Source of the DNA: Alphaproteobacteria bacterium
GTDB lineage: Bacteria > Pseudomonadota > Alphaproteobacteria > Rs-D84
Direction of reading: 5' to 3'
NCBI GenBank assembly: GCA_009783855.1
Contig: WRCO01000012.1
Span: 1-32,488, forward strand
DNA length: 32,488 nt
Shown: piece after piece, positions 46-17,787 of the stretch
How positions within the stretch are numbered: the first letter of the stretch is position 1
How the letters are laid out: the number at the start of each line of letters is the position of its first letter
Made by a program: the position numbers and the translations under genes
The notes under the pieces: generated by a model
Told to the model about the DNA's origin: nothing
The model's input: the letters and a program-made list of their open reading frames with translations, nothing else
Databases searched by the model: none

Positions 46-63
46 TGTCTAATATATTAGACA
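46..63. repeat. Perfect 18-bp palindrome TGTCTAATATATTAGACA (copy 1); degenerate copy TGTCTACTATGGCAGACA at 2..19
   Basis: Exact self-complementary sequence identical to copies at 16657, 17023 and 17668; followed by a TATAAA-like box. Confidence 0.9.
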
Positions 64-12548: not shown

Positions 12549-13558
12549 CGAAACAAAACGAACGCTTTATCGACCCGAATATACCAGACGATTTTGGCAA
12601 CACAATCAGGCCGAAACGTTTGGGCGACTTTGTCGGCCAGGAAGGCCTGAAACAAAACTTGTCTGTATTTATAAGCGGCGCGAAAAACAGGGGCGAGGCA
12701 ATGGACCACGTGTTGCTGTACGGTCCGCCGGGACTTGGCAAGACGACATTGGCGCATATTGTTGCGAACGAACTTGGCACGAATTTTCGCGCGACGGCGG
12801 CGCCGATGCTTACCAAACAGGGGGATTTGGCGGCGATTCTGACGGCGCTTGAGCCGCACGATGTCCTGTTCATCGACGAAATCCACAGGCTTCCGACGGC
12901 AATCGAAGAAGTCCTTTACAGCGCGATGGAAGACTTCAAACTGGACATCATGCTTGGCGAAGGGCCGTCGGCAAAAAGCGTGCGCATTGATTTGCCGCCG
13001 TTCACGCTTGTCGGCGCGACGACCCGCACCGGGCTTTTGTCGAATCCTTTGCGCGACCGGTTTGGGATTGATTTGCGCCTTAATTTCTATTCGGCCGCGG
13101 ACCTTGCGCAAATTATTTCACGAAGCGCGAACATATTGGGCATTCCGATAGAGCAATCGGCGGCGTTGACATTGGCGGGCAGCAGCCGCGGCACGCCGCG
13201 TATTGCCAACCGCCTGTTAAAACGCGCGCGGGATTTCGCTGCGGCGCCCCACGCCTCACGCCTTACGCCTCACGAAACGCCAATCACCGAACCCATCATC
13301 AAAACTACATTGCAACAGCTTGGCATCGACCAAATCGGCCTTGACGCAATCGACCGCGAATATTTGGGCGCGATTGTAAAGCATTACGCGGGCGGCCCGG
13401 TTGGCATTGAAAACCTGTCCGCGGTCTTGTCGGAACCGGCCGATACAATCGAAGACGTCATCGAACCATACCTGATGCAGCAGGGTTTTATACAACGCAC
13501 GCCGCGCGGCCGCATGATTACCGACGCGGGATACAGTCATCTGGGGTTGGAAAAATGA
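12545..13558 (+). CDS. ruvB: Holliday junction DNA helicase RuvB
   Basis: [66 protein letters not shown]. Confidence 0.98.
13250..13276 (+). repeat. Heptamer tandem repeat inside ruvB (CACGCCT CACGCCT TACGCCT CACGAAA)
   Basis: Direct reading; encodes extra HASRLTPHE in the RuvB C-terminal domain. Confidence 0.85.
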
Positions 13559-16462: not shown

Positions 16463-16605
16463 TTCCATCATCGAGTTTGTCCCACAAGGACCATTGAGCG
16501 CACATTTTAGCGAATTTTGCCATATTCCAACATTGTATTATTTGTATTCTGAAAACCATTGAGAGGCAATAAAAGCACGGGAAAATTGCCATATAGACGC
16601 CATAC

Positions 16606-16627
16606 GGAATCGCCATATTAGCGCCAT
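16606..16627 (+). repeat. Direct repeat, left copy (GGAATCGCCATATTAGCGCCAT)
   Basis: 20/22 identity with 17703..17724; preceded by a related unit GCCATATAGACGCCATACGG. Confidence 0.75.
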
Positions 16628-16655
16628 GCAAATTAAAAAGTGTTAAAATTATGAC

Positions 16656-16684
16656 TTGTCTAATATATTAGACAACTTTATAAT
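16656..16684 (+). promoter_or_regulatory. Putative promoter overlapping palindrome copy 2: TTGTCT-N17-TATAAT
   Basis: -35 16656-16661, -10 16679-16684, palindrome 16656-16675; upstream of HTH ORF. Confidence 0.65.
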
Positions 16685-16710
16685 AACACTTATAGTTTAA
16701 GGAGAATGAA

Positions 16711-17019
16711 ATGCGATTCAAATTTTTATCCAAACCTGTCATAGAAAGACAACACTTTATTGTTAATAAAAAAATCGACCAAAAATTGATTGCTGAATTA
16801 TCGGTTGCATTGGATAATCTGGATATCGAAAAAATCAAATCCGTTTTAATGGAAATTGCAAAAACTCACCCACGGCGGTCTGACATTCCGGCGATACTGG
16901 GGATTTCCAGACCTGGGTTTTATAATATACTTTCGCCATCCGGCAATCCTGGATTTATAACAATATTGCGCTTATTGAATTTATTTGATATAAAATTACA
17001 AGTTGAAGCAAGAAAATAA
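16711..17019 (+). CDS. HTH antidote/HigA-like (COG3636-type) DNA-binding protein
   Basis: KSVLMEIAKTHPRRSDIPAILGISRPGFYNILSPSGNPGFITILRLLNLFDIKLQVEA resembles addiction-module antidote proteins. Confidence 0.75.
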   Translation: MRFKFLSKPVIERQHFIVNKKIDQKLIAELSVALDNLDIEKIKSVLMEIAKTHPRRSDIPAILGISRPGFYNILSPSGNPGFITILRLLNLFDIKLQVEARK

Positions 17020-17022
17020 TGC

Positions 17023-17040
17023 TGTCTAATATATTAGACA
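17023..17040. repeat. Palindrome copy 3 TGTCTAATATATTAGACA
   Basis: Exact match. Confidence 0.95.
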
Positions 17041-17060
17041 AGCAATAATAGGGGTATAAA

Positions 17061-17654
17061 ATGGGATCGCAAGAAGTTATACAAGAGGCGGCAAATAAAA
17101 TCACCACTATGTTATTAAATGAAATAACTGATGCTTTCAATAAAACATTAGAAACTTCCATAGAATTAGCAGATGCAAAAGCTGTCTGGGATATTTTCAA
17201 CAGTCCGAATAAGGGTTCTTTAACTGTTCGTCAATTTAATCTACTAGAAACCACCTTAAATTCTTTCTTCACTTGTTATGATTTTATAAGAAATGAAATC
17301 GAAGAGAATCCCGAACAATATATACAATCTATGATGAAGCTTGGATTGACACCACCGCAATTTATAAATTTACTTATAGAAAAACTGTCGGGTTATTTAA
17401 TAATGGGTGAGAAACGAATGGTTGAACTAAGACCTTGTTATATATCTGCATTAAAAACCGCAATCGAATTAGGTGCATATCCAGAATTGGAGGCATTAAA
17501 TATGTCCCCAGAAAAATTTATAGAATCTTCTTTGGAGATGATTGATAGGCTTGATGGAAATCCATTGTCTGCCAGAGATTCAATGCAGATATACGAGGCA
17601 CTTTCACAGGGAAAAACATATCCCGAATACTTAGCAGAAAAGAATGATAAATAA
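17061..17654 (+). CDS. Hypothetical 197-aa, predicted mostly alpha-helical protein
   Basis: Uninterrupted AT-rich ORF with GGGG/ATG spacing, between palindrome copies 3 and 4. Confidence 0.7.
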   Translation: MGSQEVIQEAANKITTMLLNEITDAFNKTLETSIELADAKAVWDIFNSPNKGSLTVRQFNLLETTLNSFFTCYDFIRNEIEENPEQYIQSMMKLGLTPPQFINLLIEKLSGYLIMGEKRMVELRPCYISALKTAIELGAYPELEALNMSPEKFIESSLEMIDRLDGNPLSARDSMQIYEALSQGKTYPEYLAEKNDK

Positions 17655-17667
17655 ATCAAAGTAATGC

Positions 17668-17685
17668 TGTCTAATATATTAGACA
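17668..17685. repeat. Palindrome copy 4 (extended GC..GC, 22 bp at 17666-17687)
   Basis: GCTGTCTAATATATTAGACAGC. Confidence 0.95.
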
Positions 17686-17702
17686 GCTTATAGGCTTTCA
17701 AG

Positions 17703-17724
17703 GGAATCGCCATATTGCCGCCAT
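17703..17724 (+). repeat. Direct repeat, right copy (GGAATCGCCATATTGCCGCCAT)
   Basis: 20/22 identity with 16606..16627. Confidence 0.75.
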
Positions 17725-17748
17725 ACGGATTTTCCCGACAATCAAAAA

Positions 17749-17787
17749 ACCTTGCAATACCATACGATGCAAGGGTTCCGGTTTTTT
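17749..17787. terminator. Putative terminator hairpin
   Basis: ACCTTGCA...TGCAAGGGT with flanking A/T tracts. Confidence 0.5.

Follow-up and report, generated by a model that had tools for sequence, protein, structure and literature searches.

We describe an AT-rich gene island in a stretch of bacterial DNA of 32,488 nucleotides (contig WRCO01000012.1 of the alphaproteobacterial assembly GCA_009783855.1). This whole stretch, referred to as the window, belongs to a genome of 901 kb in 31 contigs (G000), in which it is contig C12. The island consists of a gene for a small helix-turn-helix (HTH) protein, followed in the same direction by a gene for a 197-aa protein, and the two genes are bounded and separated by three perfect copies of an 18-bp palindrome, TGTCTAATATATTAGACA. 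Together with a fourth copy near the contig end, these account for every perfect palindrome of at least 18 bp in the whole window. A first-pass annotation, made from the sequence alone, had recognized both open reading frames (ORFs) and their palindromic bounds and had called the region more AT-rich than its neighbours, all of which holds: the GC content is 0.332 in the island (positions 16611–17729) and 0.520 in the window, and GC at third codon positions is 0.30 in the HTH gene, 0.26 in the 197-aa gene and 0.68 in nearby tolR.

The same annotation had assigned the HTH protein to the COG3636-type antidotes and had remarked that the usual RelE- or HigB-like toxin was missing, and both statements are borne out. 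The protein scores 31.9 bits against PF21716, the HI1420/COG3636-type antidote family, which passes the cut-off of 27; its score against the NCBIfam model TIGR02684 is 27.3 bits, far under the cut-off of 53.7. Its neighbour is an orphan 197-aa protein here and unrelated enzymes elsewhere. Homologues with 60–74% identity to the window's protein (seven copies in all, counting the one in the window) occur in six of 201 genomes of the order, all six in one taxonomic family. Those of their contigs that have names belong to metagenome-assembled genomes labelled Alphaproteobacteria, Proteobacteria or Rickettsiales, and the isolate codes suggest that most of these genomes come from insect guts, probably of termites.

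The evidence that ties the HTH protein to the palindrome comes from the upstream regions of these genes. At all seven, a palindrome lies 55–60 bp 5' of the ATG and a TATAAT hexamer begins exactly 4 bp after the 18-bp core, which gives TTGTCY-17-TATAAT, i.e., a consensus promoter within the palindrome. A palindromic operator overlapping the core promoter of its own gene, as expected of an autoregulated HTH repressor, is thus found at 7/7 loci, and the proposal that the HTH protein would repress its own gene through the palindrome is well supported at the level of sequence. The palindrome also varies together with the protein. Residue 67 is arginine where position 5 of the palindrome is T (2/2, the window and G010) and lysine where it is C (5/5), while residue 72 is lysine where position 7 is C (3/3, contig C15 of G000, G001 and G010) and asparagine where it is A or T (4/4, the window, G008, G012 and G015). 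The window's protein is closest to those of C15 and G001 (74% identity), yet has N72 as in the 65–66% group; the G010 protein is the most distant, yet has K72 and the matching C. The pairing of residues and palindromes therefore cuts across the grouping by pairwise identity and exceeds what would be expected from shared descent. Both residues fall in a predicted helix, 67–74, of a poor structural model built from six sequences (predicted local distance difference test score, pLDDT, 49), from which we took helix positions only, and the recognition helix probably spans about residues 67–74. At another locus (L078, 3923–4228), an ORF begins with a GNAT-like part and ends with the 27 C-terminal residues of the HTH protein, a fusion that looks like the product of recombination within an island.

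Comparison of collinear sites indicates that the module was acquired and is present or absent among relatives, as the first-pass annotation had supposed when it spoke of a mobile or recently acquired, repeat-bounded module and suggested a search for an empty-site allele. On one side of the island is a 107-aa gene, which follows tolQ-tolR-tolA, and on the other a convergent 797-aa gene. The same two genes are collinear in G004, of the same genus, where they are 145 bp apart with neither palindrome nor island; in G001, also of the same genus, about 185 bp separate them and contain only two palindromes, 27 bp apart. The exact break points could not be placed because the non-coding DNA is too diverged. 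A similar case is provided by the three-cassette island of G008, which adjoins a grpE-like gene (named by eye): in G001 the homologue is followed by nothing but two palindromes, 33 bp apart. We give this case less weight, since the gene on the other side is oppositely oriented in G001.

No two of the HTH islands have flanking genes in common; the match between them is limited to the HTH gene. This suggests that the islands have moved or have been assembled more than once, in different locations. The cargo is equally diverse. It comprises 225-aa and 311-aa proteins of no confident family in C15; a PHP protein and two APH-type phosphotransferases (kinases) in G001; a type II chorismate mutase and a P-loop-like protein in G008; Nmad3 in G012; an SDR and a serine-hydrolase-like protein in G015; and NUDIX, a/b hydrolase-like and DUF2797 proteins in G002, where the HTH gene is reduced to a fragment. 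The compact islands follow a simple rule of n genes and n+1 palindromes (2 and 3 in the window, 3 and 4 in G008, 2 and 3 in G012, 1 and 2 in G005, the last being a lone 280-aa gene between two palindromes), and within most islands all palindromes are of one type. Good matches to the -10 box after a palindrome are also present at the chorismate mutase gene of G008 and the 225-aa gene of C15. Elsewhere in G000 (contig C1; L011, 5839–7081), AT-rich phosphatase-like and cytidine-deaminase-like genes, both named by eye, lie near palindromes and are probably another cassette site, one that has no HTH gene.

The 197-aa protein itself gave non-significant matches only in searches of Pfam, NCBIfam, PADLOC, PHROGs and PDB sequences, and its fold, predicted from the single sequence with a mean pLDDT of 61, matched no PDB structure with an E value below 1. 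It has no relatives in the genome contigs, viral contigs, phages and plasmids searched, and among 100 genomes it was found in one, its own. The profile and structure searches proposed in the first-pass annotation thus assign it to no family, and the suggestion that it is the toxin of the HTH antidote finds no backing in a protein seen in a single genome of those searched, when the partners of the HTH gene elsewhere are others. The alternative suggestion of a regulated partner is plausible, because the gene has its own operator palindrome 21 bp ahead of its ATG; this palindrome forms a weaker promoter-like match, CTGTCT-16-AATAAT.

Table 1. Island genes, palindromes and associated repeats in the window
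Feature	Coordinates	Strand	Remarks
HTH gene, 102 aa	16711..17019	+	COG3636/HI1420 (PF21716) type; putative autorepressor
HTH gene promoter	-35: 16656..16661; -10: 16679..16684	+	17-bp spacer; -10 is TATAAT
197-aa cargo gene	17061..17654	+	predicted all-helical (low-confidence model); no relatives found in the searches made
Palindrome 1, TTGTCTAATATATTAGACAA, 20 bp	16656..16675	strandless	18-bp core from 16657; left end forms the -35 of the HTH gene
Palindrome 2, 18 bp	17023..17040	strandless	4 bp past the HTH stop, 21 bp ahead of the cargo ATG
Palindrome 3, GCTGTCTAATATATTAGACAGC, 22 bp	17666..17687	strandless	18-bp core from 17668, beginning 14 bp past the cargo stop
Palindrome copy 4	46..63	strandless	inside a MITE-like repeat broken by the contig end; relative of the punctuating palindromes, outside the island
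Motif M copy 1, GCCATATAGACGCCATA	16588..16604	+	outer repeat
Motif M copy 2, GCCATATTAGCGCCATG	16612..16628	+	left direct-repeat copy
Motif M copy 3, GCCATATTGCCGCCATA	17709..17725	+	right direct-repeat copy
Terminator-like hairpin	17747..17787	+	3' of motif M; CCTTGCA...TGCAAGG, then T-run (read from sequence)

The palindromes form a large family. A generalized pattern, TGTCYNNTATANNRGACA, matches 44 places in G000 and the reversed control pattern none, so chance is not the explanation. Natural variants include the TCTAATATATTAGA, CCACTATAGTGG and CCTTTATAAAGG types, and the symmetry is kept at the variable positions: 38 of the 44 sites in G000 are fully symmetrical (shuffled mean 9.6, maximum 19), as are 65 of the 83 sites in other genomes (shuffled mean 16.1, maximum 30). 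Of 200 genomes of the order, 13 contain a related pattern; all 13 belong to the family of the window's genome and none to the largest genus of that family, with one match in total for the controls. The repeats, taken from six sources, matched no family in an Rfam search. In G001 the palindromes are paired or tripled with a period of 33 bp, approximately three helical turns (L086, 6169; L087, 5432; L089, 4961). Many pairs are flanked by long inverted runs of short words (GGTAAAAGGTAATA..., GTGGCTGGTGGTTCGTG...; L128, 2878–3062; L018, 4850–5060; L022, 6800–7020), such that the whole could fold as a large hairpin. Two punctuating palindromes also ride on a repeat of about 175 bp that resembles a miniature inverted-repeat transposable element (MITE). 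Its ends are GGGAWCTGTTAAGATA, and it seems to be flanked by target duplications of 8 bp. It is found at positions 1–120 of the window, at about 911–1085 and at 12835–13008 of L016 and at contig ends in L012–L015 and L017, and several contigs of the assembly terminate within it. About eight of the G000 palindromes of the window's type are due to this element, and the number of independent sites is thus lower than a raw count of the type suggests.

Outside the palindromes, the first-pass annotation had noted near-identical direct repeats at 16606 and 17703. The repeats are real but are no simple pair: a third copy lies next to the left one, at 16582, and all are copies of a wider motif, here called motif M, with the pattern [ACGT][AC]CATAT-N4-[ACGT][AC]CAT[AG]. 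Motif M accompanies palindromes in other genomes as well (16 of 19 matches within 166 bp in the first set of loci), and copies without palindromes were found in later loci. One subtype of the motif flanks both the window's island and that of G012 in the same orientation, and a terminator-like hairpin lies 3' of many copies, as in the window. At several loci the motif (GACATATACCGGACATAGAAAT) is followed by a CCCGCA...TGCGGG terminator-like hairpin (L144, 4150; L145, 3649; L074, L078 and L125), again also where there is no palindrome, and one copy with this hairpin lies about 170 bp ahead of a tRNA gene.

We consider it probable that the island was acquired and is made up of single-gene cassettes punctuated by palindromes, among them the gene of a solitary HI1420/COG3636-type autorepressor whose operator is the punctuation itself, with the 197-aa protein being one passenger among the cassette cargo. 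This reading brings together, as far as they can be read from the DNA, the island's anatomy, the overlap of palindrome and promoter, the presence and absence at collinear sites, the exchange of cargo, the cohesion of palindrome type in most islands and the covariation of helix and palindrome. A dimer of the HTH protein would bind the palindrome and shut its own promoter; neighbouring cassette promoters with the same palindrome may be repressed as well, and unrelated passenger genes would thereby come under one local repressor. Control by the HTH protein is plausible for any cargo gene that has a 5' palindrome. Cassettes would presumably come and go at sites that, without them, carry one palindrome or two. 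We are doubtful of a more far-reaching version, in which the palindrome is both the promoter/operator and the site of cassette insertion and loss, and the HTH gene is the signature gene of a new integrase-free platform whose passengers arrive repressed; there, a resident palindrome or pair would be the empty site and every inserted gene would bring one palindrome with it.

A number of observations weigh against the cassette island, and most of those that concern the palindromes speak for its strongest rival, which we regard as possible, if on the unlikely side. Here the palindromes would be hairpin repeats of the usual intergenic kind, serving as bidirectional terminators or structural sites and spreading through slippage and with MITEs, independently of the HTH protein; the HTH protein would simply have adopted one of them for its own promoter, and the appearance of cassettes would result from repeats piling up at gene ends. 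Most palindromes do sit outside HTH islands, and 37 of the 83 in other genomes occupy gaps between convergent genes, a location that suits a terminator or structural role. In different genera they appear again, with altered sequence, at orthologous gaps; some have extended A-tract/T-tract arms, MITEs have evidently transported some copies, and G003 (97% complete) has palindromes and no HTH homologue at E <= 1e-12. Over all palindromes, -10 boxes are no better 5' of genes than 3' of genes (p = 0.19), for which reason we confine the promoter claim to the HTH genes. No recombinase was recognized in any island, and the uniformity of palindrome type is broken in G001 (three types) and in C15 (one odd copy). 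What hairpin repeats leave unexplained is that a consensus promoter coincides with the palindrome at each of the seven HTH genes and that the palindrome covaries with the recognition helix, as read from seven proteins compared without a tree; these two results count against the rival as a full account. The single palindrome type within most islands and the low GC of the bracketed genes also fit it poorly. Mean GC is 0.33 for the seven HTH genes, 0.407 for 12 other bracketed genes and 0.497 for 385 unbracketed ones (p = 2.9e-5 with the HTH genes left out), a contrast that is support short of proof, since known cassettes formed part of the training set of the gene caller and the GC of two of the 12 genes is host-like (0.52 and 0.53).

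Two further accounts start from known systems. A two-gene toxin-antitoxin module, with the 197-aa protein as a new toxin and the HTH protein acting as both antidote and repressor, would accord with the membership of the latter in an addiction-module family and with two adjacent, co-directional, AT-rich genes; we nevertheless hold it very improbable, given that the first-pass annotation's proposed check for a conserved gene pair turned up NUDIX, chorismate mutase, Nmad3, SDR and phosphotransferase genes beside the HTH homologues, that the 197-aa protein was found nowhere else, and that the regulator gene precedes the other, the two being parted by a palindrome with a promoter-like match of its own. 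The least probable account is a degenerate integron or an array of dif modules, with either an integron integrase or the host XerC/XerD as the mobilizing enzyme. The functionally diverse single-gene cassettes resemble integron content, recombinases of the XerC/D type are present, and motif M forms direct repeats around the islands of the window and G012. Those repeats are direct, however, and not inverted; the integron integrase model TIGR02249 exceeds its cut-off in none of ten genomes, its two best matches lying beside an LptF/G-like gene and looking like housekeeping Xer proteins; and the window's palindromes, perfect and 18–22 bp long, are unlike attC sites as judged by length and shape. 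With no integrase over the cut-off and no attC-like site, membership in the integrons was rejected.

Integrons and dif modules are the familiar means by which single genes are collected at marked sites, and both need a tyrosine recombinase and a dedicated recombination site. In the present genomes of about 0.9 Mb, the 18-bp palindrome that punctuates unrelated passengers is the apparent promoter/operator of the one gene that the islands have in common. If the cassette island is the correct reading, an orphan antitoxin can come to repress foreign cassettes in its vicinity, and the naturally occurring palindrome variants, with their matching recognition helices, provide ready-made material for testing how the specificity of an HTH protein and its operators change in step.

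Compared with the HI1420/COG3636 antidotes (PF21716, TIGR02684), the island's regulator is alike in its family score, small size and co-directional adjacent gene. It differs in that no RelE/HigB-like (HI1419-type) toxin adjoins it, that its partner varies by genome and that its palindromic operator also punctuates other genes. Phage repressors and the controller proteins of restriction-modification systems are likewise small HTH proteins with a palindromic operator overlapping their own promoter, whereas the island's operator also marks the ends of neighbouring, unrelated genes and recurs dozens of times across the genome. The passengers recall those of integrons, whose single-gene cassettes are of diverse function, about two-thirds of them unknown, with toxin-antitoxin-like genes being typical (PMC7370490). 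Integron cassettes share with the islands the arrays of short, mostly single-gene, AT-rich and unrelated passengers and the recurring palindromic site, but attC sites are imperfect palindromes of 55–141 nt (PMC7370490), whereas the island sites are short and perfect and double as promoter/operator, and the common element is a regulator gene. In dif modules such genes, including toxin-antitoxin genes, lie between short sites (PMC13141974), and in the Acinetobacter plasmids passengers of this kind are shuffled between backbones. The islands, in contrast, are chromosomal, their sites are perfect palindromes or the direct-repeat motif M, which by eye only, with the dif site of G000 not identified, are unlike XerC-spacer-XerD sites, and their movement is presumed. 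On this comparison, the island looks like a little-known variant of gene-cassette or module systems rather than a toxin-antitoxin pair.
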